A DNA stretch of 64,000 nucleotides from Rhodohalobacter sp. SW132 (GTDB lineage Bacteria > Bacteroidota > Rhodothermia > Balneolales > Balneolaceae). Positions within the stretch are counted from its first letter, which is position 1, and each line of letters begins with the position of its first letter. Location: contig NZ_QUOK01000007.1 in the NCBI RefSeq assembly GCF_003390325.1, forward strand, positions 1 through 64,000, in the 5' to 3' direction. The translations under genes were made by a program, and so were the position numbers. The notes beneath the pieces are model-generated. The model saw nothing but the letters and a program-made list of their open reading frames with translations, was not told where the DNA came from and made no database searches. Shown one piece after another: positions 1,914 through 18,159 of the stretch.

Positions 1914-3101
1914 ATGCCAGACAACCGCTCCTCCTTTTACAACCACATCGCTCAAACCAGCGACGCCCCGATGGGCCTGGAGATCGAGAGGGCGGAGGGG
2001 TGCCGCATTCACACTACCGACGGCCGATCGTTTGTGGACCTGATCTCCGGAATTGCGGTCAGCAGCCTGGGGCACCGTCATCCGAATGTAATTAAAGCCA
2101 TTCAGCGGCAGCTTGATAAGCACCTGCACGTAATGGTTTACGGCGAATTTATCCAGGAGCCGCAGAGCGCATTTGCGCAGCTTTTGTGTGATCAGCTGCC
2201 GGAACAGCTCGACCGTGTCTACTTTGTGAACAGCGGGACGGAGGCAAATGAGGGTGCACTGAAACTGGCTAAGAAATCGACCGGACGCTCCAACTTTGTA
2301 GCGTTCAAAAACAGTTATCACGGCGATACCCACGGATCCCTCAGCGTAACCGGACGTGATGTATACCGCGATCCCTACCTGCCGCTTCTTCCCGGTATTA
2401 CGTTTTTGGATTTTAACGATCCGGATCAGCTTGACCGGATTGATGAGGAGACGGCGGCCGTAATTATGGAGCCGATCCAGGGCGAAGGAGGTATCATTCC
2501 CGCCGAAACCGAATGGCTGAAGGCGGTGCGCAGGCGGTGCGATGAAACCGGCACCGTGCTGATATTTGATGAGATCCAGACCGGGTTTTACCGCACCGGC
2601 AGCCTCTTTGCGTTTGAGCACTACGGCGTGGTACCCGATATTTTATGCCTGGCCAAGGCGATGGGCGGCGGTATGCCGATGGGAGCGTTTGTCTCCTCCA
2701 GCGACCGGTTTGAGGCGTTTAAACACGATCCGCCGCTGAACCACGTCACAACCTTCGGCGGCCATCCGCTGAGCTGCGCCGCCGCACACGCCAATTTGCA
2801 GACGCTTCTGGACGGTGATTTTGCCCAAAAAGCTAACCGTATTGCAGAAATAGCTTGCCACATGCTGCGAGGTGACGGAATTGAAGAAATCCGAGGACGC
2901 GGCGCCATGCTCGGTCTCCAGCTCCGCGATGCCGAACTAACCCAAAACGTGGTGAAATACTGCTTTAAAAACGGAATCATCCTCGGCTGGACCCTCCACT
3001 CCAACTCCCTGGTCCGCATCGCCCCGCCGCTCATTATCGAAGAGAAGCTTCTGGAGGAGTGTTTTCAAACAATTCTGGATGGGGTGGAAAAGTATTGCTG
3101 A
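1914..3101 (+). CDS. Class III PLP-dependent aminotransferase (acetylornithine/ornithine aminotransferase-like)
   Basis: A 395-aa fold-type I enzyme. Visible hallmarks are the phosphate-binding NSGTE at 106-110, the aromatic-stacking FKNSYHGDTHG at 131-141, IFDEIQTG with PLP-pyridine Asp219, and the Schiff-base Lys248 in CLAKAMGGGMPMGAF. HVTTFGGHPLSCAA at about 277-290 is the second subunit's phosphate-binding loop. The family moves an omega-amino group to 2-oxoglutarate. Length and motifs fit ArgD/RocD-type enzymes, but 4-aminobutyrate or other omega-amine substrates cannot be excluded. No arginine or proline pathway genes are next to it, so a symbol is not justified. The ATG at 1914 follows an A/T-rich leader without a strong Shine-Dalgarno sequence. 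Confidence 0.87.
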   Translation: MPDNRSSFYNHIAQTSDAPMGLEIERAEGCRIHTTDGRSFVDLISGIAVSSLGHRHPNVIKAIQRQLDKHLHVMVYGEFIQEPQSAFAQLLCDQLPEQLDRVYFVNSGTEANEGALKLAKKSTGRSNFVAFKNSYHGDTHGSLSVTGRDVYRDPYLPLLPGITFLDFNDPDQLDRIDEETAAVIMEPIQGEGGIIPAETEWLKAVRRRCDETGTVLIFDEIQTGFYRTGSLFAFEHYGVVPDILCLAKAMGGGMPMGAFVSSSDRFEAFKHDPPLNHVTTFGGHPLSCAAAHANLQTLLDGDFAQKANRIAEIACHMLRGDGIEEIRGRGAMLGLQLRDAELTQNVVKYCFKNGIILGWTLHSNSLVRIAPPLIIEEKLLEECFQTILDGVEKYC

Positions 3102-3845: not shown

Positions 3846-3902
3846 TCTTGACAATTTGTACGGAGTGGCGTATGATTATTTTGTAAACATAATCAATACC
3901 TC
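3846..3902 (+). promoter_or_regulatory. Orphan copy of the yefM-type promoter/operator
   Basis: TTGACA (3848-3853), a 17-nt spacer and TATGAT (3871-3876) form a near-consensus sigma70-type promoter. The spacer carries GTACGGAGTGGCGTAT, a near copy of the GTACG-N6-CGTAC inverted repeat in front of the YefM/YoeB genes at 6360. Similarity runs about 56 bp through TAAACATAATC. No antitoxin gene follows. Only a 35-codon open frame at 3919-4026 lies downstream, which I cannot call a gene. It is probably the remnant of a deleted or recombined toxin-antitoxin module. Confidence 0.55.
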
Positions 3903-4071
3903 CGTTTCCCACAATGCAATGAAGCCGCAAAGAGCCTCATTTCATATTCAAGGAATATATAGGGAAACTGTAGAAATGTATTTCGTATGTTACTCTTGTA
4001 AATTTTTTCAAAAAGTAAGCCTCTAATAATTTTCGATGCGTTATAAGAAACACTGACCCAATATTTAAATA

Positions 4072-4239
4072 CTATTTGGCTTCAATAGTTTTCGAATCCG
4101 ATAAGAATTTTTTCCTGGCCTCAGCACTTCTTTTTTTTAGGTCTGCAAATTGTTCATCCTGAGACATCTTTTTAGTTTTCTCGAAGTTTTCGTCTCTTAT
4201 CTGTCGAATAAATTTAACTGCATCAATCTTTTTCTTCAT
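4072..4239 (-). CDS. Small basic/charged protein (55 aa), putative accessory-island gene
   Basis: A short reverse-strand frame begins at ATG 4239 and stops at TAG 4072-4074. It encodes MKKKIDAVKFIRQIRDENFE followed by about 35 more residues, rich in Lys, Glu and Asp and predicted helical. Immediately upstream on the minus strand is GGGAGGTGA, an almost perfect Shine-Dalgarno sequence six bases before the ATG, which is unusually strong for this window and supports real translation. It lies in the toxin-antitoxin island, convergent with nothing and divergent from the HigBA module. Composition and size resemble antitoxin-like small proteins, but no partner toxin is seen beside it. Function unknown. 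Confidence 0.6.
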   Translation of the reverse strand: MKKKIDAVKFIRQIRDENFEKTKKMSQDEQFADLKKRSAEARKKFLSDSKTIEAK

Positions 4240-4385
4240 AATTTGTCACCTCCCGGGGTGAATAAAATATCTTTTTACTGGATTCGGGTACTCGGATTAC
4301 TGCTTGGCTGAATTCGGGGTAGACAGTTTTAAAGAGAATCAGATGTTATGCCTCCTCTTCTCTTAATAAAATAGCACTTGATTAA

Positions 4386-4403
4386 GTTAACATAATTGTT
4401 AAC
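4386..4403 (+). promoter_or_regulatory. Paired GTTAAC boxes, putative HigA operator
   Basis: GTTAAC at 4386-4391 and 4398-4403 are separated by 6 bp and end 9 nt before the toxin start. Each box is palindromic. The position immediately upstream of a HigBA-type operon suggests an autoregulatory operator for the downstream XRE antitoxin (inference from module layout). Confidence 0.45.
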
Positions 4404-4412
4404 ATTTGTTCT

Positions 4413-4758
4413 GTGAAAGAAATCAAGTTCTATAAAACCCAATTAGGCAAAGTTCCCGTAAAAGAGTTTTTGGACTCACTGAGTTCTAAACATGCTCAGA
4501 AAGTAACCTGGGTTCTTGAATTGGTTGAAAGACTGGATCAGATTCCGGTTCAATATTTCAAGAAATTGGAAAAGCACAGATGATATTTGGGAGGTTAGGG
4601 CAAGAATTGGATCGAATAGTTTTAGAATTCTTGGATTCATTGATGGTGATGAATTTATCATCCTGACGAATGGATTTTCCAAAAAATCACAAAAAACACC
4701 AAAGAAAGAAATTAAACTTGCAGAGCAGCGTAAAGCTGATTATCTGTCCCGAAAATGA
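4413..4758 (+). pseudogene. HigB/Gp49-like (DUF891) toxin, broken by +1 frameshift
   Basis: Read from GTG 4413, the first frame gives a typical HigB N-terminus (KEIKFYKTQLGKVPVKEFLD) and runs to KKLEKHR, then TGA. The adjacent frame continues the family pattern: [20 protein letters not shown], then [16 protein letters not shown] and [10 protein letters not shown] up to 4758. Removing one A from the GGAAAAGC run near 4577 joins the two frames into an about 114-aa [13 protein letters not shown] protein, the normal length for this RelE/ParE-superfamily ribosome-dependent mRNA interferase. The gene is therefore either inactivated, subject to slippage, or affected by a homopolymer base-call error. 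The antitoxin 8 nt downstream is intact. The order toxin-antitoxin is the HigBA order. Confidence 0.8.
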
Positions 4759-4766
4759 GGTAAAAC

Positions 4767-5045
4767 ATGAGTGATTTACAAGCTTATATCAGCGACCGCA
4801 AAAAACGAGATCCCGAGTTTGCCGAAGACTACGATGCAGGATTTCGCAGTTTCAAAATTGGTGTACTTTTAAAGAAAGCCCGCGAAGAAGCTGGCCTGAC
4901 TCAGGAAGAACTCGCCAAACAATTAAAAACAAAAAAAACAGCCATCTCACGAATCGAGAATCATGCCGAAGATATACGGCTTTCAACTTTAGAGAAGTAT
5001 GCCCAGGCATTTGGAAAAAAGCTCAGAGTTGAACTCGTAGAGTGA
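4767..5045 (+). CDS. XRE-family HTH antitoxin (HigA-like)
   Basis: A 92-aa protein with an HTH_3/XRE domain at about residues 31-86: [20 protein letters not shown], then [10 protein letters not shown] and [15 protein letters not shown]. The N-terminal about 30 residues ([12 protein letters not shown]) are typical of HigA antitoxins paired with DUF891 toxins. They neutralise the toxin and repress the operon by binding palindromes upstream; the GTTAAC pair at 4386-4403 is the likely site. It follows the frameshifted toxin by 8 nt. Its stop codon is only 5 nt from the first attC-like site, as expected for the last gene of an integron cassette. Confidence 0.87.
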
Positions 5046-5050
5046 GGCAG

Positions 5051-5139
5051 GCATAACCAGCGGTTCGTGCGATCGGTAAGCGATTGGTTGCCAATGGTCG
5101 TTTTTTCAGACCCGCCGCACAACCGCCAAGCCGTTATAC
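5051..5139 (+). other. attC-like integron recombination site 1
   Basis: GCATAAC (5051-5057) and GTTATAC (5133-5139) form the outer R''/R' pair. Inside, left-arm GCGGTTCGTGCG pairs with right-arm CGCACAACCGC, leaving one extra C on the left arm. An unpaired base at this position is the hallmark of attC hairpins, where it becomes the extrahelical G of the folded bottom strand. The 89-bp length is within the attC range. The site begins 5 nt after an ORF stop, the expected place. No integrase gene is in the window. Confidence 0.65.
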
Positions 5140-5174
5140 AACTTACTCAAGAATCCTCCCTTTTTGATTTACTA

Positions 5175-6215
5175 ATGAAGAAGTATAGATCGCATCTTAT
5201 TTTGTTTAATAGGGATTCAGCCTTAATAAAATCTCTAAATTTCGATAACCTTGAAATTGATCTAGAAATTAGTCCTGAACCGACCGGTACATTCTGGAAA
5301 TCTTCTGATGGTCGTTCTGAATCATGGCACAAAGAACCTCAAGAAATTCCATCATTAGAAGGAAAAATACCTGCAGATGAATTAATTATTATAGCTGAGA
5401 ACGAGGGAATTGCTGAGGACATTTTATCTACAATAAAAGGTGGAATACTTCTTGCGTACCCTGACTTTAATAATTTTCCACTTGCTGCAGATTTAAATAG
5501 TGTCGAAGAAATACCATTGGAAATTTATAAAGATGAATACTTCCGTAAATACTATAAGCAAGTTGACCATATCGGATATGGCTGTCGAGTACTAAAAGAA
5601 GCATACAAAAGAGCTGATTTTCAGTATGCAATTGAAAAGTTTAAACTCAGTTTGAAAATTAATTCAATGACTCCTCATTCGGCTAATCCTAAATATGGGC
5701 AAATGTTTGAGCATTATGATCTTGACAAAAGCTACCATACTAGCGGTGCTTTTGCCATAACAGCTGCTTTCTCAGTGGTTGAAGAATTAGGATTGGAAGT
5801 TAGGTCAAGTTCAAAAAAACCGAGATTTCTTGATAATGAAAAAGGCATCTGGAATCCATCTGTTTTAAATGATATTGAAGAGAGGCTAAAAAAAATTGGG
5901 ATTACTAAAAAAGACACATTTGATTGGATATTTAGAGGCGATAAAACAGAAGTTGAAAAAGATTTAAAACCCTATTTCGGTTATGATTCTGAGTGGACAA
6001 AACTAAATGAAGAAGTCAGGGATAAAACGTTATCCTTTCCAGAAGCTATTCATAACCTAAGCTATCTTAGAAACTTTATAGCCTCTCATAAATTTAGAAC
6101 ACTCACTCCGTTTATTAGTCCTTATGATATTTTCAATGCTCAAAGCCTGGCCCGGAATTTAATACTTAGAAGCTTAGGGCTTTGGAAAATTGACATCTAT
6201 AATCAATCCAATTGA
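5175..6215 (+). CDS. Uncharacterised 346-aa cassette protein
   Basis: A soluble, mixed alpha/beta-looking protein, A/T-rich compared with its neighbours. An upstream GTG at 5067 would extend the frame, but that extension runs through the attC-like site, so ATG 5175 (MKKYRSHLILFNRD) is preferred. Recognisable text includes GGILLAYPDFNNFPLAADLN and a conserved-looking HYDLDKSYHTSGAFAITAAF segment near the middle. The C-terminal half is helical (SYLRNFIASHKFRTLTPFIS). I do not recognise a family. It is bracketed by two attC-like sites, so it behaves as a single-gene integron cassette; cassette genes are commonly orphan, toxin-antitoxin or defence-related. A role in phage defence or stress is possible but unsupported. 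Confidence 0.65.
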   Translation: MKKYRSHLILFNRDSALIKSLNFDNLEIDLEISPEPTGTFWKSSDGRSESWHKEPQEIPSLEGKIPADELIIIAENEGIAEDILSTIKGGILLAYPDFNNFPLAADLNSVEEIPLEIYKDEYFRKYYKQVDHIGYGCRVLKEAYKRADFQYAIEKFKLSLKINSMTPHSANPKYGQMFEHYDLDKSYHTSGAFAITAAFSVVEELGLEVRSSSKKPRFLDNEKGIWNPSVLNDIEERLKKIGITKKDTFDWIFRGDKTEVEKDLKPYFGYDSEWTKLNEEVRDKTLSFPEAIHNLSYLRNFIASHKFRTLTPFISPYDIFNAQSLARNLILRSLGLWKIDIYNQSN

Positions 6216-6219
6216 AGTT

Positions 6220-6342
6220 GTATATCAAGGCGTTCTAAATCAGACGCGGACGGGGCGCGACGGGACTTGATTGCAAGGAATTAATTTCGCTACTTCAAAG
6301 AAATCATAATCCCCGTGCCTGTTAAACGCCGCACCGTTATAC
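6220..6342 (+). other. attC-like integron recombination site 2
   Basis: GTATATC (6220-6226, one change from GTATAAC) and GTTATAC (6336-6342) are the outer pair. Left-arm GGCGTTCTAA pairs with right-arm TTAAACGCC, again with a single extra C on the left arm at the equivalent place to site 1, and pairing continues through CAG, GC and ACGGG. Length is 123 bp. The left box begins 5 nt after the ORF stop. Two sites in direct orientation about 1.2 kb apart define one cassette from 5134 to 6336. Confidence 0.6.
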
Positions 6343-6359
6343 TATCTGACCTCATAAAC

Positions 6360-6388
6360 TTGACAATATGTACGGAATGGCGTACGTT
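6360..6388 (+). promoter_or_regulatory. Promoter and operator of yefM-yoeB module
   Basis: TTGACA (6360-6365), a 17-nt spacer and TACGTT (6383-6388). GTACG-gaatgg-CGTAC (6370-6385) is a perfect inverted repeat covering the spacer and the start of the -10, the right place for repression by the YefM/YoeB complex. The start codon is 32 nt downstream. A near-identical copy lies at 3846-3902. Confidence 0.65.
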
Positions 6389-6420
6389 TATTTTATAAAC
6401 ATAATCCATATCTCCATATC

Positions 6421-6663
6421 ATGAAGACATTAACTGCAACCCAAGCACGAAAAGATATTTACCGGTTATTGGATGAGGCTTCTGAAACTCATGAGCCCAT
6501 TCAAATTACCGGCAAGAGGAGCAATGCAGTACTCATCAGCGAGGATGACTGGCGTTCGATTCAAGAAACACTTTATCTCTCTTCCATTTCCGGAATGCAG
6601 GAATCCATTGTTGAAGGACTGCAGACTCCAATTGAAGAAACCGACGAAGAACTTGACTGGTGA
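6421..6663 (+). CDS. yefM: Phd/YefM-family antitoxin
   Basis: An 80-aa protein with the PhdYeFM fold: N-terminal ATQARKDIYRLLDEASETHEPIQITGKR is the DNA-binding and dimerisation part, followed by NAVLISEDDWRSIQETLYL and an acidic tail (PIEETDEELDW) that binds the toxin. In the family it neutralises YoeB and autorepresses. It overlaps the next gene by 4 bp (GTGA), indicating translational coupling. The promoter with a GTACG/CGTAC operator lies directly upstream. The symbol is used in the family sense. Confidence 0.9.
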   Translation: MKTLTATQARKDIYRLLDEASETHEPIQITGKRSNAVLISEDDWRSIQETLYLSSISGMQESIVEGLQTPIEETDEELDW

Positions 6664-6926
6664 GTAAATACAAACTCGTATATACAAAACAAGCAAAAAA
6701 GGATGCTAAGAAAGCAGCTTCTTCAGGATTAAAGCCAAAGATTGAAGAGTTACTGGAAATAATAAAGGAGAATCCTTTTGAAGAATATCCTCCTTATGAA
6801 AAGCTTGTAGGGAATTTAGAGGGGGCTTACTCCAGACGTATCAACATCCAGCACCGATTAGTTTACCAAGTGTTGGAGGAAGAAAAGATAGTTAAAGTGA
6901 TTAAAATGTGGACTCATTACGACTAA
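6660..6926 (+). CDS. yoeB: YoeB/Txe-family toxin (RelE superfamily)
   Basis: An 88-aa protein starting with GTG inside the antitoxin stop. The C-terminal block YSRRINIQHRLVYQV, then VIKMWTHYD, is the signature of Txe/YoeB ribosome-dependent endoribonucleases. The family's basic and C-terminal His/Tyr catalytic residues are present (R-R, H-R and the final HYD). Length and frame are intact, so the module should be functional. It blocks translation when the labile antitoxin is lost. Partner and regulation are given by the overlapping yefM gene. Confidence 0.92.
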   Translation: MSKYKLVYTKQAKKDAKKAASSGLKPKIEELLEIIKENPFEEYPPYEKLVGNLEGAYSRRINIQHRLVYQVLEEEKIVKVIKMWTHYD

Positions 6927-7133
6927 GCCAGTCGAATCCTCTTATCTAAGCAATCAGGCACGAAATATCCACTCACCTCATGATCGGCATTTAATTACGA
7001 CTTCCTCCCCGCCGATAAAACCACTTCTGAGATTACATGACTTAATCGAAGTTTATGATAACGAGACTTCAAAATAGAAGGGTTGAAGAAACCTTTTTCA
7101 ATAAAATCTCTTTTGACAAAACTCAATAAGACA

Positions 7134-7784
7134 ATGAAACCACTCTCATCTCTGCTAATCATTCTATTATTACTTACCGCCTGCAGCCAGGAGGAGACTT
7201 TTGAGAAAACGTCATATCGTGTCGCAGATATTTTTCCTGAGATATCCCTTTCTGACGAGTTCAATCTCTACGTGGATGAAACCGCTCAGCCGGCGAATGG
7301 ACACTACACCTCCAGCTATCAAAATGGATCCACACTGGCCGATATTACGTTCAGAGAAGGGATGATTTCGGAGGGCAAAATCTTCAGAAGTGATGGGTTG
7401 CAAGAGGTCAGTTACACGACCGAAAATGAAAGGATGAAGCTGACCTTCTATAAAGAAAATGGCGAGCCCCATTTGGTATCTGTTTATGGCGATGATATGT
7501 CGGATCGAAGAGAGTTTCACGCCTGGTATGAGAACGGCGTACGGTCCATAGAGAGTGATGAGACAAATTATAAAATGTGGTATGAAAATGGCCTGCCGCA
7601 ACTACAAATACCGTCAGTTGATGGGGAACTGCACGGCAGAGTGGTTTCATGGTACGAGACCGGCCAGGAAGAATACGAGATGAATTTTTATGATGGTATA
7701 GAACACGGAACGTTCAAAGAGTGGGATGAAGAGGGGAATATTACCAGTGAAAAAGTCTACGAGATGGGTGAATTGATCAAGTAA
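7134..7784 (+). CDS. YwqK/MORN-like repeat lipoprotein, copy 1
   Basis: A 216-aa protein starting at ATG 7134. An upstream in-frame start at 7083 would bury the signal peptide, whereas from 7134 a clean lipoprotein signal ending LTACS (Cys15) appears. The body carries MORN/YwqK-like strands (WYENGVRSIES, MWYENGLPQLQ, SWYETGQEEYEM, FYDGIEHGTFKEWDEEGNI), each a short beta-hairpin with a WYENG or EW motif. Proteins of this family are usually called YwqK-type antitoxins, but the toxin role is established only for a few members, so function is left open. It is 73% or more similar by eye to the next gene. A surface or periplasmic location is inferred from the lipobox. Confidence 0.75.
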   Translation: MKPLSSLLIILLLLTACSQEETFEKTSYRVADIFPEISLSDEFNLYVDETAQPANGHYTSSYQNGSTLADITFREGMISEGKIFRSDGLQEVSYTTENERMKLTFYKENGEPHLVSVYGDDMSDRREFHAWYENGVRSIESDETNYKMWYENGLPQLQIPSVDGELHGRVVSWYETGQEEYEMNFYDGIEHGTFKEWDEEGNITSEKVYEMGELIK

Positions 7785-7861
7785 GAGATGTAAAATTGAT
7801 TCTGCTGATGATCTTTGAAGTAGCTTCCAGCCAGGGAATTCATCAGAAGAAAACTGTCCCG

Positions 7862-7879
7862 AAATGAGCTCTTCGGGAT
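7862..7879 (+). terminator. Hairpin after lipoprotein copy 1
   Basis: CCCGAA (7858-7863 region) pairs with TTCGGG across a 7-8 nt loop, about 75 nt after the gene stop and followed by ATCCAGCGAAACTTTTT. It is plausible as a weak intrinsic terminator. The surrounding text recurs after copy 2 and again near 9660, so it may equally be a dispersed repeat. Confidence 0.35.
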
Positions 7880-8042
7880 CCAGCGAAACTTTTTAATTCC
7901 ACTCACCTCATGATCAGCATTTAATTTAGACTTCCATCCTGCCGATAAATCCACCACAGAGTTTCTCTGGTCCTATACTACGCTGGGATACCCGGATTAC
8001 TATTTGAGAAGATTGAAGGCTTTGCAAAACTCAATCAAGATT

Positions 8043-8693
8043 ATGAAACAGCTGTCATCGATACTATTCATTCTTATAATATCTGTCGCCTGCAGTCAGG
8101 AGGAGGTTTTTGAAGAAATTTCAAACGATATCACAGAAATTTTTACTGAGATTTCTCTTTCCGAAGAGCTCAATCTCTACGTGGATGAAACCGATCAGCC
8201 GGCAGATGGGCACTACACCTCAAGCTATCAAAATGGATCTACACTGGCTGATGTTACATTCAATGAAGGGATGATTTCGGAGGGGAAAATTTTCAGAAGT
8301 GATGGGTTGCAAACGGTTGGCTACACGGTTGAAAATGAAAGGATGAAACTGACCTATTACAATGAAAATAGCGAGCCCAAGCTGGTAACTGTGTATGGTG
8401 ATGACTTGTCAGAACGACGAGAGTTTCACGTATGGCACACGGATGGTACCCGGTTAGTTGAATCTGCTGAGAATACTTTTAATATGTGGTATGAGAATGG
8501 CCGGCCGCGGGTACAAATGCCGTCAGTGGATGGGGAACTCCATGGAAAAGTGGCAGTCTGGTACGAAAATGGCCAGATCGAATCCGAGCATCATTATTCG
8601 AATGGCGTAAAGCACGGTACGTTTACAGAGTGGGACGAAGAGGGGGCTGTAACCAGTCAAAAAGTCTACGAGATGGGAGAATTGATCAAGTAA
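8043..8693 (+). CDS. YwqK/MORN-like repeat lipoprotein, copy 2 (tandem paralogue)
   Basis: A 216-aa paralogue of the preceding lipoprotein with the same domain order: signal peptide ending SVACS, the about 80-residue LYVDETDQPADGHYTSSYQN region almost identical to copy 1, then four MORN/YwqK-like hairpins ending KVYEMGELIK in both. ATG 8043 is chosen because it starts the signal peptide; an upstream in-frame ATG at 8004 is less likely. Most substitutions are in the repeats rather than the N-terminal block. The flanking DNA (CCACTCACCTCATGATC...CATTTAATT) is also duplicated, so this is a recent segmental duplication of about 0.9 kb. Function unknown. Confidence 0.75.
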   Translation: MKQLSSILFILIISVACSQEEVFEEISNDITEIFTEISLSEELNLYVDETDQPADGHYTSSYQNGSTLADVTFNEGMISEGKIFRSDGLQTVGYTVENERMKLTYYNENSEPKLVTVYGDDLSERREFHVWHTDGTRLVESAENTFNMWYENGRPRVQMPSVDGELHGKVAVWYENGQIESEHHYSNGVKHGTFTEWDEEGAVTSQKVYEMGELIK

Positions 8694-8869
8694 GGGGTGT
8701 AGAAATAATTTTTCTGATGAGTTTTAACGCGGCTACCATTCAGTGAAACTCATCGGACGAAAACTGTCCCGAAAACTCATTCAGGATCCGACGAGGCTGA
8801 ACAATTCAACCTCGTACGCCATGCGAAACTCCACAGTACACACCTCTACGTTTAACCATACGATCCCGA

Positions 8870-8907
8870 TTGCCCAATCGTTCTGGATGTGTTACATTGC
8901 AGTACAC
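8870..8907 (+). promoter_or_regulatory. Promoter and operator of CopG/PIN module
   Basis: TTGCCC (8870-8875), a 17-nt spacer and TACATT (8893-8898). GTGTTAC-attgca-GTACAC (8889-8907) is an almost perfect inverted repeat over the -10, consistent with RHH-antitoxin autorepression. The start codon is 18 nt downstream. Confidence 0.5.
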
Positions 8908-8925
8908 GTAAAGAAATTAATCGAT

Positions 8926-9144
8926 ATGGATACAACCCTCACAATTCGAATTGATAAAGAGCTCGAACAACTCCTCGAAGAATCATCAAAGAGAACCGGC
9001 CAGTCAAAAAGTGAACTTGTACGGCAGGCGCTAAAGCGTCAGTTGCGCATCGAATCTTTCCAGCAGCTGCGAAAAGAGCTTTTGCCTTATGGAGAAGCGC
9101 AGGGATGGTTAACAGATGAAGATGTCTTCCGCGAAGTCTCCTGA
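8926..9144 (+). CDS. CopG/ribbon-helix-helix antitoxin-like protein
   Basis: A 72-aa protein from ATG 8926. A longer frame from 8743 exists, but the added residues are encoded by intergenic repeat and promoter DNA. TTLTIRIDKELEQLLEESSKRTGQSKSELVRQAL is a textbook RHH DNA-binding strand and helices. The C-terminal tail (LPYGEAQGWLTDEDVFREVS) would bind the toxin. The PIN-domain gene follows after 86 nt, so this is a VapB-like role by position. Confidence 0.85.
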   Translation: MDTTLTIRIDKELEQLLEESSKRTGQSKSELVRQALKRQLRIESFQQLRKELLPYGEAQGWLTDEDVFREVS

Positions 9145-9230
9145 GCAGTAATTTTAAGTAATAATGACTTCAGCATTCGCTTCAGAATCGGGTTCTATTC
9201 CATTCATCAGTACTCAAGCCGGGGTGTGAA

Positions 9231-9632
9231 ATGAGGATTTTTGCTGACACCAACATATTGGTTAGTGCTTTTACAGCGAGGGGACTATGTGCAGATTTAC
9301 TGGAAGTAATTCTTGCTGATCATCAATTGATGACAGGAGAAATTGTGTTGGAAGAGCTGAACCGTGTGCTGCTAATAAAGTTGAAGATTCCTGAGAGCAA
9401 AGCATCTGGCGTTATGGAGTTTCTCCGCAAGTACCATGTAGAACCTATACCTGATAAACCTTCTGAAGTTGAAGTCAGGGATGAAGATGATCGATGGGTA
9501 CTGGAATCAGCAATAAGAGCAAAAGCCGATATTTTAGTTACTGGAGATAAAGATCTATTAGATATATCAGGGAAAGTCCCCCAGGTAAAAATCATTTCAC
9601 CCCGCGGAATTTGGAAAATGCTGCAAAAGTAA
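9231..9632 (+). CDS. PIN-domain ribonuclease toxin (COG1569/TIGR00305-type)
   Basis: A 133-aa PIN domain: FADTNILVSAF carries the first acidic residue (Asp5), GEIVLEELNRVLLIK the second region, and VRDEDDRWVLESAIRAKADILVTGDKDLL the DEDD/TGDxDLL acidic cluster that binds the metal. The domain is complete. In the family these are VapC-like Mg2+-dependent RNases inhibited by the upstream antitoxin. The gap to the CopG gene (86 nt) is larger than in most VapBC pairs. GGGGTGTGA just before ATG 9231 serves as the ribosome site. Confidence 0.87.
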   Translation: MRIFADTNILVSAFTARGLCADLLEVILADHQLMTGEIVLEELNRVLLIKLKIPESKASGVMEFLRKYHVEPIPDKPSEVEVRDEDDRWVLESAIRAKADILVTGDKDLLDISGKVPQVKIISPRGIWKMLQK

Positions 9633-9654
9633 TTCAGGTTCGCTCAAACCTGTC

Positions 9655-9812
9655 CGGGAAAAGCCGGGACGAAAGCAGTCCGGAAAGTTTCCGGGATCCG
9701 ACAAAACTTAACCCTGCACGCAGTGCACCACTCAACAGTTCAACCTCACGCGCAGCGTGAATCTCAACAGTGCACGCAGCGTACCCCTCAACAATTCAAC
9801 CCCTTACACTAA
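9655..9812. repeat. Dispersed CACGC-type short-palindrome repeat cluster (copy 1)
   Basis: Contains TCCGGGAAAAGCCGGGA and GTCCGGAAAGTTTCCGG hairpins, then CACGCGCAGCGTG and GTGCACGCAGCGTAC mini-palindromes separated by CTCAACArTTCAACC spacers. Nearly the same string recurs at 10617-10712. It fills the gap between the PIN and DUF433 genes. No coding potential. Confidence 0.6.
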
Positions 9813-9912
9813 TACGAGCACTATAGATAGCACACCATTAATCCCGAAATACATTCCAGAGTTGTTGATCGTTAACGGATTATGTACATTTTCCTAAACA
9901 AACGCATAAACC

Positions 9913-10149
9913 ATGAGCCAAAATCTGTTAAACAGAATCACCAGGAAGCCGGATATTTGTCACGGCAAACCTACGATCCGCGGATTGCGATACCCGGTTG
10001 ACACCATGCTGGATTTATTGGCTTCAGATATGAGTATTGATGAAATACTGGCTGACTATCCGGATTTGGAGAGAGAGGACTTGTTGGCTTGCCTTGAATA
10101 TGCTGCCCAATTATCGCGAACGAAAAAATCGCAAAAAATTGTCCGGTGA
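9913..10149 (+). CDS. DUF433 antitoxin-like protein
   Basis: A 78-aa DUF433 protein: LLNRITRKPDICHGKPTIRG near the N-terminus and MSIDEILADYPDLEREDLLACLEYA in a predicted HTH, both typical of the family. DUF433 proteins are found paired with DUF5615 PIN-like toxins and act as antitoxin and autorepressor (established for some VapB45-type pairs, inferred here). It shares a 4-bp GTGA overlap with the next gene, so the pair is translationally coupled. Confidence 0.88.
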   Translation: MSQNLLNRITRKPDICHGKPTIRGLRYPVDTMLDLLASDMSIDEILADYPDLEREDLLACLEYAAQLSRTKKSQKIVR

Positions 10150-10499
10150 GAGTACTTGTTGACGCACATCTACCTAAACGCCTTTCTGAGTTCTTATCGA
10201 CTCATGAAATAGAATCAAAACATACTCTGGAGTTACCCAAAAAGAATGCGACACCTGATTCAGAAATCATTCAGACTGCAGATCAGGAAGAGCGAATTGT
10301 AATATCAAAGGACAGAGATTTTCTCGATAATTATATCCTGGATGGAAGCCCTGAAAAATTGTTAATTGTTTCAACCGGAAACATTAATAATCAGAATCTG
10401 ATTCGTTTATTTAAGAATAATTTAGAAACGTTAAAGTCACTGTTTGAAGAGAATTCAGTGATCGAGATCAACGAAGAAGAGATTCGGGTGCACTACTAA
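10146..10499 (+). CDS. DUF5615 PIN-like toxin
   Basis: A 117-aa protein with GTG start inside the upstream stop. MRVLVDAHLPKRLSEFLSTH and VISKDRDFLDNYIL are the acidic core of DUF5615 (Mut7-C/PIN-like nuclease) domains: Asp6, then KDxDF. The insertion PKKNATPDSEIIQTADQEER matches the family's nTxDxEIxxxA segment. It is probably an RNase toxin held by the DUF433 partner. The gene appears intact. Confidence 0.87.
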   Translation: MRVLVDAHLPKRLSEFLSTHEIESKHTLELPKKNATPDSEIIQTADQEERIVISKDRDFLDNYILDGSPEKLLIVSTGNINNQNLIRLFKNNLETLKSLFEENSVIEINEEEIRVHY

Positions 10500-10569
10500 C
10501 CCGGCCAGTTAGTAAGTATTTCCCCGAACAAGAAGTATGGAATTGGTTTGGGCGATGAGGTGTAAGGCG

Positions 10570-10712
10570 ACTTCCAGCCATGAACCCACCAATCCAACTT
10601 CACACACAGTGCGAAACTCACCTGCACGCAGTATACTCCCTCAACAATTCAACCTCACGCGCAGCGTGAATCTCAACAGTACACGCCGTGTACCCCTCAA
10701 CAATTCAACCCC
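10570..10712. repeat. Dispersed CACGC-type short-palindrome repeat cluster (copy 2)
   Basis: Shares CTCACGCGCAGCGTGAATCT, ACAGTACACG(C)...GTGTACCCCTC and the AACAATTCAACCCC tail with 9737-9811. These blocks are short palindromes spaced by about 18-20 bp. An open frame passes through (10537-10731) but encodes only low-complexity repeat text. The rest of 10500-10868 shows nothing recognisable. Confidence 0.6.
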
Positions 10713-10868: not shown

Positions 10869-11921
10869 ATGAGTAAACAAAAGATTGTGATTTACGGAAG
10901 CTACGGCTACACCGGCCGGCTGATTGCCAGTCGCGCTGCTGAATTGTACAGCAATGTTTTGCTCTCCGGAAGAAATGAGCAGAAATTGAAAAAGCAAGCT
11001 GCGGAACTAAACCTGGATTACTTGGCAGTTGATACATCCGATCCACTTCGTTTGGAAAATCTTTTGAACGATGCACATCTTGTAATCCATTGTGCAGGTC
11101 CGTTTATCCACACCTGGCAGCCTATACTCGATTCCTGTATCCGAAATCGCTGCCATTATCTGGATATCACCGGGGAAATCGGGGTATTTGAAGGGATTAA
11201 AGCGAGGAGTGATGAAATTGCTGAAGCGAAAATCATGGCGATGCCCGGCGTTGGTTTTGACGTTGTTCCGACCGATTGCCTGGCGCTCTATCTGAAGAAA
11301 CAGCTTCCCGATGCGGATCACCTGGAACTCGCTTTTATGGGGCTCGGAGGCGGCGTATCTCATGGAACAGCGCTGACTATGGCTGAAAATCTCGGAGAAG
11401 GCGGGGCAGTCAGGGAAGATGGCAGGATCAAATCGGTGCCGGCGGCCTACAAAACCCGGTCGATAGATTTTGGCGAAAGGCAGAGAACGGCCGTGACCAT
11501 TCCGTGGGGTGATGTGTCCACGGGTCACCACACAACTGGGATTGATAATATTACTGTCTACACCGCCATGAAACCGTCCGCTATCCGCTGGCTGAAGCTC
11601 TCCAACTGGATTTCACCGATTTTGCGGCTGGATGCGGTTCGTAATCTGGCTAAAAAATGGATCAGCAAGAAGGTAACCGGACCGGATTCAAAAGCCCGGG
11701 AAACGGGTGAAAGTTACATCTGGGGAGAAGTGAAAAATCCCGGTGGAGAAACGATTACAGCACATCTTAAAACCCCGGAAGGTTACAGGCTTACCGCAAT
11801 GACCGCCATTCACATTGCACAGAAAGTACTCTCCGGTGATTTCAAACCGGGATACCAGACACCGGCCTCCGCATACGGTGAAGATCTGATTCTGGAAATT
11901 GAAGGCACGGAAAGGGTCTGA
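10869..11921 (+). CDS. Saccharopine dehydrogenase-like NAD(P)-binding oxidoreductase
   Basis: A 350-aa protein with an N-terminal Rossmann fold: VIYGSYGYTG (residues 7-16) is the dinucleotide-binding turn, followed by SGRNEQKLKKQAAEL and LVIHCAGPF at about 76-84. The remainder fits the trans-acting enoyl reductase/saccharopine dehydrogenase-like group: MPGVGFDVVPTDCLALYL at about 127-144 and GGVSHGTALTMAENLGEGG. The substrate is unknown. True lysine-pathway enzymes are longer, so lysine metabolism is unlikely. It stands alone with A/T-rich gaps on both sides. A promoter is not obvious. Confidence 0.82.
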   Translation: MSKQKIVIYGSYGYTGRLIASRAAELYSNVLLSGRNEQKLKKQAAELNLDYLAVDTSDPLRLENLLNDAHLVIHCAGPFIHTWQPILDSCIRNRCHYLDITGEIGVFEGIKARSDEIAEAKIMAMPGVGFDVVPTDCLALYLKKQLPDADHLELAFMGLGGGVSHGTALTMAENLGEGGAVREDGRIKSVPAAYKTRSIDFGERQRTAVTIPWGDVSTGHHTTGIDNITVYTAMKPSAIRWLKLSNWISPILRLDAVRNLAKKWISKKVTGPDSKARETGESYIWGEVKNPGGETITAHLKTPEGYRLTAMTAIHIAQKVLSGDFKPGYQTPASAYGEDLILEIEGTERV

Positions 11922-14232: not shown

Positions 14233-17200
14233 CTATTTGATCAGCGACAGTTTTCTCGTCTCTGTAAAATCACCCGCCTGGATACGGTAGAGATAGATTC
14301 CGCTCGACAGGGCAGAGGCGTCAAAGTTTATCGTGTGCCAGCCGGCCGACTTCTGTTCATCCACCAGCATCGCTACTCTTTGACCGATGATGTTATAGAC
14401 CTCCAGCCTGACCGGTGATGCCTCAGGAATGCCGTATCGAATGAGCGTGGATGGATTAAACGGGTTCGGATAATTCTGATTCAGGGTTAATTCCACCGGC
14501 CGTTCCTCGTTTTCAATAGAGGTAGTCAGTGCTGTTGTAAAGCTGAAAATTTCCGACCACGTGCCGTTCCCGGTCTCATTGCTGCCTCTTGCCCGCCAGT
14601 AATAGGTGCTTAAAGGGTCCAGACTTTCAGGTAGCTCAAACTCCGTTCCTCTGATATCTGAAAAGCTTGAAGTAATTTCATCAAACTCTTCTTCGAGTGA
14701 CAGCTCAAGTGAATAGTGGGTGGCAAATTCCGCTTCTTCCCAACTGAATGTTGGCGTCAAATTTACATCTTCAGCACCACTTTCAGGAAGCAAAAGTTGA
14801 GCCCGGGGCGGAAATGGATCTCCACCTGTACGATCTGTAAAGCGTATGGTTAATGTTTTTTCCAGTTCCAGGGTGGGGCTTGCCGTATCGGCTATTGCAA
14901 CTTCAATGACATCTCCCTCAAAGCCATTGGCTATGATATTGAAAATAAATGAATCGTCTCCCACAGGCTCTATCTTAAGCTTGTTTGGATCTGAAATCTC
15001 AAATTCGAACGGCAGTGTCTGAAATGAGAATGCTGTTTCGATTCGCACTCCAAGAGTATCATCGCCGGCCATTTCCAGTTCAATCACACCTTCGGGATTA
15101 TCCGGTGTAGCGTTTACGAGAATATCTACAGGAACACCGAAAAATTCGCTGGCATCAAAAAAGAGATTAATCTCGGAATCAACTCCCGTGTTGATATTAT
15201 CGGCAATGGTAATATTGAGTTCCCCGTCATCGCTTCTGCGGGCAGATGAGTAATTAAACCAGTAGAATGAATTACTTAAGCTTTCAAGTCTTTCTTGTAT
15301 ATCAACAAAATTGAGGACAATGTTATCAAAATCTTCTTCGATAATCGTACCGGCATTGCCAATGGCACGCAGTGTTTCCTCGTCAAAATCTTCCGGACGG
15401 TTTTCAACACCGATGGCAAACACCCGTTTTTCTCCCCGTGCTTCCAGCACCTCCTCGAGTGAGGTTGTTCCGGCAAGGTCACGGCCGTCCGTAAAGAGCA
15501 GCAAAAATCCTTGTGTGATGTTTGCAAAAGAAAATTCATCCTCCCAGAGATCCAGAGCTTTTACCACGGACCCGTGCACGTCTGTACCCGGTATATTGGT
15601 AATTGAAAAATCCTCGAGTGCAGAGAGCAGGGTATTTTTATCGGTAGTAAACGGAACCACCAGTTCAGAGTTCTCGGCAAAGATCTTAATGGCAATCTCC
15701 TGTTCCGGGGTTTTATTCCGGACGAACTCCTTGGCAGCTTCCTTAATCAATTCGATATTCTCCTCCCCGATACTCAGTGAATTATTGAGAAGCAGAACCG
15801 TTTTAAGCGCAGATTCAACATCCCCTTTTTGAGCCACCTGCAGGTTTGTTTCCGCTTCAACAATCGTGCGCCCGTTCTCAAGCAGCTGAAAATCATCCAG
15901 AGTGAGCGTAGAGATTCCCCTGCCATCCTGGTCAATAGCACTCAGAAATACGTTGATATTGCTTGGCCGGGATGTAAAGGCTGTATCGGCCCGTAATCGA
16001 ATGAAAAAGCCATAATCGCCATTAATGATCCAATTATATTCATCTATCAGAATTTGGCGGGCATCAGCACCAGGAGCAGTATAGGTTAATCCATCAGCTC
16101 CCAACTCAACCCCATTCTGCAGATTCACCTGTTCCGACCACCCAATTAGTGTACTATTGTAGTTCTCTATGGATAAGCTGCTGTTGTTCAGCATATTGCG
16201 CATATGGATAACATTACTCACATCCCAGCTGCCGATATTCTGGTTGAAAGAGTTTGCACCAGAGAACATATCAGTCATATATCTCACGCTGCTCACATTC
16301 CAGCTGCTGATATCCTGATTGAAGGAACTTGCATCATAGAACATTCGATGCATATTGGTAACGCTACTCACATTCCAACTGCTAATATCCTGATTAAATG
16401 AGCTTGCATTATAAAATATTTGTCCCATATCTGTCATGCTGCTCACAACCCAGTTGCCGATATTCTGGTTGAAAGAGCTTGCACCATTAAACATTAAATT
16501 CATTCTGGTTACGCTGCTTACATCCCAGTTGCCTATATCCTGGTTAAACGAACTCGCATCCCAGAACATCTCCCTCATATCTCTCACGCTGCTCACATTC
16601 CAGCTTCCGATATGCTGGTTGAATGAACTCGCACCTCTGAACATCCCACTCATAGTTGTTACGCTACTCACATCCCAGCTGCTGATATCCTGGTTGAAAG
16701 AGCTCGCAACAAGAAACATATACGACATACCGGTCACGCTACTCACATTCCAACTGCCGATATTCTGGTTAAACGAACTCGCATACCTGAACATCTCGCT
16801 CATATTGGTCACACTGCTCACATCCCAGCTGCCGATATCTTGGTCAAACGAAATAGCATCCCAGAACATCCCTCGCATATTGGTCACATTGTTCACATTC
16901 CAACTGCCGATATCTCCATTAAAAGATTCGGCATTCTGGAACATCCAAGCCATGCTGATTACGTTATTGACATCCCAGTTACCTATATCCTGGTTAAACA
17001 AAGTCGCAAGCCGGAACATCTCCCTCATATCTCTCACACTGCTTACATTCCAGCTTCCGATATTCTGGTTGAAGGAACTTGCCCCCCAGAACATCTCGCT
17101 CATATTGGTCGCACTGCTCACATTCCAACCGCTGATATTCTGGTTAAACGAAGTCGCAAGCCGGAACATCTCGCTCACATCGGTCACATTGCTCACATCC

Positions 17201-18159
17201 CAACTACCTATATCCTGGTTGAAGGAGCTCGCACCGGCGAACATCGAACGCATATCCGTCACACTGCTTACAACCCAACTGTTGACATCCTGGTTGAAGG
17301 AGCTTGCCCCCCAGAACATCTCAATCATATTGGTCACACTGCTCACATTCCAACTGCCGATATCCTTATTAAAGGAACTCGCATCTCTGAACATCCCTTG
17401 CATAGTTGTCACATTACTCACATTCCAGCTGCCAATATTCTGATTGAAAGAACTGGCACCAGAGAACATTCCCCGCATAGTTGTCACGCTGCTCACATCC
17501 CAACTGTCGATATCTCCATTAAATGATTCGGCATTCTGGAACATTCCTTGTATAGCACTCACACTGCTCACATTCCATCCGCTAATATCTTGGTTGAAGG
17601 AACTCGCACTGTTGAACATGCCTCCCAAAGTTATTACGCTGCTCACATCCCAGTCGCCGATATCCTGGTTGAAGGAACTCGCACCAAAGAACATACTATT
17701 CATATCCTTCACGTTGCCTACATTCCAACTACCAATATCTCCATTAAAAGATTTGGCATTTCTGAACATCCAACGCATATCGGTCACGCTACTCACATTC
17801 CAGCTGCTGATATCCTGGTTAAACAAACTTGCCCCGCCGAACATCCTTCTCATAGTGGTCACACTACTTACATCCCAGCTACCAATATCTTGGTTGAAAG
17901 AACTCGCGCCGTAAAACATCATATACATATCCGTAATCCCACTCGTACAGCTTGTTGAGGCATTATCGGTGGTAATCTGATCGCGGGTTCGCTTTGTGTA
18001 GGTCACACCGTTTACTTCTCCGCTGTCGCCCACTTCGGCATCTGTGCACATGACGGTTACGCCGTTTTCGTGGAGGAAGAAATCCTGGGCAGTTGCACTA
18101 TCTGGAGTGGCTGCAAGGGTTACAAGGAGTGTAAGTGGGAGAAGTAGCAGTGTTTTCAT
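14233..18159 (-). CDS. BspA-like (DUF285) repeat, VWA and T9SS-sorted surface protein
   Basis: A 1308-aa secreted protein. In order: signal peptide (residues 1-24, ending ATA); a short Cys-containing lead; 23 consecutive 25-residue DUF285 repeats (about 83-658) of the form [21 protein letters not shown]; a VWA-like domain at about 740-930 ([14 protein letters not shown] as degenerate MIDAS, later FTDGRD); beta-sandwich regions, one FnIII-like module (about 1110-1210); and a C-terminal T9SS sorting domain ([20 protein letters not shown] ... SGIYLYRI). It is exported by Sec, then type IX secretion, and displayed at the surface. BspA repeats often bind host or matrix proteins, but a ligand cannot be inferred. 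It is preceded by the 48-bp motif at 18245-18292 and separated from the next operon by a terminator. Confidence 0.9.
16186..17913 (-). repeat. 23 tandem 75-bp units encoding DUF285 repeats
   Basis: The units are exactly 75 bp with variable third bases and a mix of DVSSV/NVSSV/VVSSV and NQDI/NGDI/NQNI versions. The long in-frame reading frames on the opposite strand here are a by-product of the repetition. The regular length shows that repeat number can change by slippage or recombination without breaking the frame. Confidence 0.9.

Follow-up and report, generated by a model that had tools for sequence, protein, structure and literature searches.

The window, a 64-kb stretch of DNA, belongs to contig C7 of the 5.08-Mb, 45-contig genome (G000) of Rhodohalobacter sp. 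SW132. Between two core genes it carries a short cluster of genes and recombination sites whose relevant features are listed here, with scores from the attC model (R1) and the attI profile (R2) described below.

1914–3101, + strand: left flanking core gene, encoding an argD-like aminotransferase
4273–4350, + strand: attI relic, corresponding to the right half of an attI (crossover G at 4345, TT at 4346)
4346–5133, + strand: cassette 1, a HigBA-like toxin-antitoxin pair with attC1
4413–4758, + strand: HigB/Gp49-like toxin gene (Pfam PF05973 on the downstream part; a frameshift near 4575 splits the frame)
4767–5045, + strand: HigA-like HTH antitoxin gene, intact (Pfam HTH_3, E = 1.6e-13)
5051–5139, + strand: attC1, 89 nt (R1 31.9 bits, E = 9.3e-6)
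5134–6336, + strand: cassette 2, with G|TT boundaries
5175–6215, + strand: gene for a 346-aa protein, a candidate HEPN-like protein
6220–6342, + strand: attC2, 123 nt, with a mutated R'' core (R1 78.2 bits, E = 1.1e-17)
6421–6926, + strand: YefM-YoeB-like toxin-antitoxin pair after attC2 (Pfam)
7912–8004, + strand: second attI relic, ahead of a gene for a MORN-repeat lipoprotein (R2 18.3 bits, E = 0.012 genome-wide)
10869–11921, + strand: right flanking core gene, encoding a saccharopine-dehydrogenase-like oxidoreductase

The left flanking gene is present in 54 of 58 family genomes. In a sister species of the same genus (G077) the two flanking genes lie only 195 bp apart and thus form an empty site, from which it follows that about 7.7 kb are inserted in the window. 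Two other relatives are occupied at this site: G078, of the same genus, has a ParDE cassette and, ahead of the right flanking gene, an array, and G072, of another genus, has two attCs after the aminotransferase gene. No attCs were found at this chromosomal site in 20 other family genomes. Just left of the attI relic, at about 4072–4239 on the minus strand, we also observed a 55-aa antitoxin-like ORF with a Shine-Dalgarno-like GGAGGTGAC.

attC sites fold as bottom-strand hairpins with extrahelical bases. The first-pass annotation had described two attC-like sites with complementary outer boxes, pairing inner arms and an extra C on the left arm, and all of these elements can be read in the sequence, with both sites on the + strand. 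The outer boxes are GCATAAC (5051–5057) and GTTATAC (5133–5139) in attC1, and GTATATC (6220–6226) and GTTATAC (6336–6342) in attC2, each pair being complementary at six of seven positions. AAC/GTT is intact in attC1; the R'' core of attC2 is mutated to ATC (GTATATC where GTATAAC is expected). The inner arms pair in both sites, and the extra C stands at the equivalent place (GCGGTT-C-GTGCG / GGCGTT-C-TAA). Each site was also said to start 5 nt after an ORF stop, which is correct for attC1 (HigA stop at 5045) but not for attC2, which lies 4 nt behind the stop of the 346-aa ORF (6215).

A covariance model had been proposed as a check on these sites. We built a lineage-specific model (R1) from 22 attCs of intI-adjacent arrays in other Balneolaceae genomes, the sites of the window being excluded. 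Applied to the 64-kb window at E ≤ 10, R1 gave exactly two matches, at the positions of attC1 (31.9 bits) and attC2 (78.2 bits). The same model returned 143 matches, all on the expected strand, in 319 kb of integrase-linked loci (training sites included), and none at E ≤ 0.1 in a further 213 kb drawn from 20 family genomes. Array attCs in relatives fall mostly into two length classes of about 90 and 125 nt, both of which are represented in the window (89 and 123 nt). Furthermore, attC2 is close in sequence to array attCs of four loci (L058, L044, L045 and L055), and attC1 is 83% identical to that of the ParDE cassette which occupies this site in G078. An Rfam scan of the window gave no match at the gathering threshold. 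Bottom-strand folding, the other proposed check, came out only partly in favor: a stem forms in attC1 and a less stable one in attC2, with energies moderately beyond those of shuffled sequences (z = -2.2 and -1.3, respectively), so that folding alone is no proof of an attC. Judged by the covariance model and the sequence comparisons, both hairpin sites are confirmed as integron attC sites.

An integron cassette consists of one gene and one attC. The annotation had taken the 346-aa gene for one cassette and the HigBA pair ahead of it for another, and both proposals are borne out. Cassette 2 is bounded by G|TT at both ends, and a relative of its gene in G042 is flanked by two attCs. At 4346–5133, the 5' end of cassette 1 (TTATGC with the preceding G) is complementary to the attC1 R'' (GCATAAC) at seven of seven positions. 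Relatives of the 346-aa gene occur in two other species, G042 and G069, at 87–88% identity; the one in G042 occupies a different chromosomal locus and has a different attC behind it. The protein itself has no Pfam or NCBIfam match, PADLOC and PHROGs gave no function, and its AlphaFold model (pLDDT 34) is too low in confidence to use. It has a weak match to a Cas13a profile and a conserved RNFIASH motif of the Rx4-6H type, and the gene for a homologue on a Roseovarius plasmid (33% identical) overlaps an MNT-type nucleotidyltransferase gene. HEPN proteins carry an Rx4-6H motif in an all-helical domain and are often paired with MNT; we infer that the 346-aa protein is a candidate HEPN-like protein.

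The YefM-YoeB-like pair has no attC behind it, R1 giving no further match in the window. Two similar promoter- or operator-like stretches (TTGACAATNTGTACGGARTGGCGTAYG) were noticed at 3852–3907 and 6361–6417; yefM-yoeB follows the second, and no gene of this kind follows the first.

To the left of cassette 1, the head of the array (4273–4350) is not matched by R2, a sequence-only profile of five integrase-linked attIs. Compared directly with the head at the same site in G078, it scores 23 (shuffle maximum 17, n = 2000), and against the integrase-linked attI of its own genome it scores 22, a value reached by one of 2000 shuffles. The similarity extends over 68–76 bp, is gapless over 68 bp against the own linked attI, and lacks the left half of attI. 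In G078, G072 and G042 the stretch that precedes the first crossover is similar to what separates intI from its first cassette, and R2 recognizes all three heads (63, 50 and 72 bits, respectively); those of G078 and G072, at the chromosomal site of the window, are full-length attIs. These comparisons indicate that the left end of the array is a decayed attI, that is, a relic. The cluster thus begins at this relic and is more than a series of attCs: it is a platform with an attI at its head. The second relic (7912–8004) scores higher than any of 1000 shuffles, and a diverged duplicate of it near 6982–7035 is weak (81 of 1000 shuffles as high). The surrounding stretch, 6968–8693, is a tandem duplication of an attI-relic and MORN-repeat lipoprotein gene unit, with stretches 81–84% identical. 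The window copy is largely fossil: half of attI is lost, the attC2 core is mutated and HigB is frameshifted. It probably no longer exchanges cassettes efficiently.

The classification of the cluster as a CALIN-type array stands, with two close attCs and intI not nearby; neither intI nor an intI relic was found in or beside the insert, and the locus does not classify as a complete integron. The statement that the array is without integrase is true of the locus and not of the genome, because an intact IntI is encoded on contig C15 (945–1883). It is the one true integron integrase of this genome, scores 433 bits with TIGR02249 (cut-off 265), contains no stops and has its own attI and attC. The search for IntI and for further attCs outside the window, suggested by the first-pass annotation, thus yielded both: R1 matches 14 places across the genome at E up to 1, one of them beside the integrase at the extreme end of C15. 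In other genomes, attC arrays were found in 19 of 20 stretches upstream of intI, on the strand opposite to intI; the exception, in G078, is a sequence that stops about 370 bp past intI. Of 92 family genomes, 50 carry an integrase above the TIGR02249 cut-off. The earlier remark that this lineage has few descriptions of integrons agrees with our literature search, in which no match paired 'integron' with Balneolaceae; most subscription papers lay outside its coverage. The IntegronFinder 2.0 survey names Salinibacter ruber M1 as the complete integron detected in Bacteroidetes proper, and reports CALINs to be about as numerous as complete integrons (PMC9024848).

Across the family, R2 detected 42 attI sites in 20 of 89 genomes, and only five of these adjoin intI. 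We examined each locus of the remaining 37 sites, which lack an intact intI (hereafter orphan attIs). The genome studied here has two well-preserved ones on contig C1 (70 and 53 bits), and downstream of both there are attCs that point the same way; an intact orphan attI on C1 spans 153532–153665. Overall, 23 of the 37 orphan attIs have an attC downstream on the same strand, with no opposite-strand attCs in these loci; of the 14 lacking one downstream, seven have a contig end within 800 nt. In 15 of 21 testable orphans the heptamer at the attI crossover pairs without mismatch with the R'' of the first attC (shuffle mean 1.6, maximum 8, n = 20000), which is the signature left when a cassette is joined precisely at that crossover.

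Two orphan attIs in G043 are identical to the linked attI at 141 and 137 of 145 positions, and the sequence directly upstream of them is unrelated. For eight of nine orphan attIs the closest integrase-linked attI is that of their own genome, one of the eight being nearly tied. Even orphans that occupy a common site in G042, G043 and G045, behind the same 811-aa gene, show this closeness, which points to recopying or concerted evolution. The G043 copies lie far inside long contigs; one of the copies close to their own linked attI, in G061, is followed after 121 nt by the end of its contig (C51) and may reflect an assembly effect. No intI was detected in eight of the 20 attI-carrying genomes, several of those assemblies being incomplete. 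In G042 the orphan attI and the attI of the resident integrase belong to different types, which makes trans activity doubtful in that genome. With the attI of G009 (genus g3) as the one query tried, G009 itself yielded no copy other than the linked one, and the dispersal pattern is therefore not universal. As a common target of orphan attIs, tRNA genes were rejected, since ARAGORN detected a tRNA gene at just two of the 31 loci.

Two of the loci show further features. At L234 (G000, C1:930000–946000) an orphan attI lies downstream of a tRNA-3'-end-like sequence, and the cassettes there encode a trypsin-like peptidase protein, a HerA-like ATPase and then HigB/HigA. At L222 (G059, C304) three attI copies, one of them partial, stand in the same orientation on one short array contig.

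The window holds a small, partly decayed CALIN, headed by an attI relic and lodged between core genes; we consider it likely that its cassettes were inserted by IntI and that in this clade one integrase has several platforms. Circular cassettes would have entered the attI copy in the window at its G|TT crossover, with IntI recombining the folded bottom strand of an attC with the double-stranded attI; the enzyme would have been supplied in trans or would formerly have been encoded nearby. A promoter-like stretch on the attI copy would express the first cassette. The recurrence of the clade's attI copies at several intI-less places, where most resemble the resident attI, is what one integrase with several platforms would produce. 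More tentatively, and at slightly less than even chances, we hypothesize that in the Rhodohalobacter-like clade an attI unit of about 145 bp has been dispersed, that its intI-less copies head many arrays and are kept similar by recopying or concerted evolution, and that one IntI serves them in trans, forming a multi-platform integron.

This interpretation has to be weighed against several others. The moderate fold z-scores would suit inverted repeats of another kind, such as terminators or REP elements; that the two sites are of this sort we find hardly credible given E-values of 1e-17 and 9e-6 from a model trained without window sequences, the cassette boundaries and the syntenic array in G078. 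It is also very improbable that the cluster is an assembly artefact, namely the broken-off end of the integron on C15. Arrays do break assemblies, and C15 ends inside an attC, but the insert is internal to C7 and is flanked left and right by core genes that adjoin each other in G077, and the G043 orphan sites are far from any contig end. Cassettes away from an integron are known to arise by attG insertion (Loot et al., 2024, as reported in citing papers), in which case they would have entered a random chromosomal G|TT and the array head would be ordinary flanking DNA. A weak head missed by R2 fits such an origin; however, this head resembles attI beyond shuffles, and full-length attIs occupy the same site in G078 (63 bits) and G072 (50 bits). 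Because the head is attI-like, we rejected attG insertion as the sole origin of the window array, and we regard an attG-type origin as improbable.

CALINs are usually attributed to integrase loss. Every attI-headed cluster could once have been a complete integron whose intI was deleted or decayed, and the window would be a fossil integron. None of the orphan attIs has an intact intI beside it; fragments occur only in L214 (truncated, next to attI) and L223, and intI leader sequence is kept in L216 and L217. These remnants favor integrase loss, as does the decay of the window copy, and the truncated intI kept at two orphan loci means that some orphans arose in this way. Integrase loss thus explains two orphan loci or more and is the chief competing account. 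As a plain explanation for every cluster we nevertheless think it unlikely, if far from negligible: most orphan loci have no trace of intI though their attI is well preserved, the similarity does not reach beyond the left edge of attI, and orphans are nearer to the linked attI of their own genome than to orthologous orphans. L214 and L216 (G070), with a truncated intI or the intI leader only, are likely intermediates of integrase loss.

The components of such a system are already known, including attC sites, cassettes, CALINs, toxin-antitoxin cargo, trans mobilization and secondary attG insertion; the part that appears to be novel is the general pattern, proposed here, of one integrase with many attI-headed platforms. 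With the CALIN class of IntegronFinder (PMC9024848) the window array shares two same-strand attCs about 1.1 kb apart, intI not nearby and toxin-antitoxin cargo, but it is headed by an attI relic, whereas the class is defined without attI. Xanthomonas CALINs away from ilvD (PMC12444791) offer a parallel in that intI is at one locus and clusters lie at other conserved chromosomal loci, and they are considered mobilizable in trans. In the passages of that paper retrieved by keyword, attI copies at these loci are not described, whereas in the present family such copies stand at the head of the clusters and are similar to the resident attI. The attG insertions of Loot et al. (2024), as presented in citing papers, likewise place cassettes at chromosomal G|TT away from the integron; here an attI, either complete or a relic, is present at the docking site. 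Delta-attI-type cassettes of class 1 and 2 integrons (PMC12901181) also have extra attI pieces outside the primary position, but in these the attI piece replaces the attC at the cassette 3' end inside the integron, unlike the attI of about 145 bp found here upstream of the first cassette at remote loci.

Our literature search found no report of dispersed attI copies heading integrase-less arrays, which is weak evidence with most subscription papers outside its coverage. IntegronFinder does not detect attI outside class 1 (PMC9024848), and because such attIs are not sought, the software would be blind to the dispersed pattern. Should attI copies spread on their own and head arrays, one integrase would run several platforms, each with a slot next to its own promoter, and cassettes may still be able to dock at many of the clusters now regarded as 'orphan'.

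Several minor observations concern mobile or repeated sequences. Within a cassette array at L100 (G078, C37) we noted transposase-like (IS91-type by appearance) and tyrosine recombinase genes. In the window, short repeats with the CTCAACAATTCAACCTCACGCGCAGCGTGAA motif surround PIN-domain and DUF433/DUF5615 gene pairs at 8797–10712, and 22 direct repeats with a period of 75 nt, a multiple of three, extend over 16117–18006. Between 38170 and 48085 there are families of GC-rich palindromic repeats (REP-like), some of them in inverted pairs.
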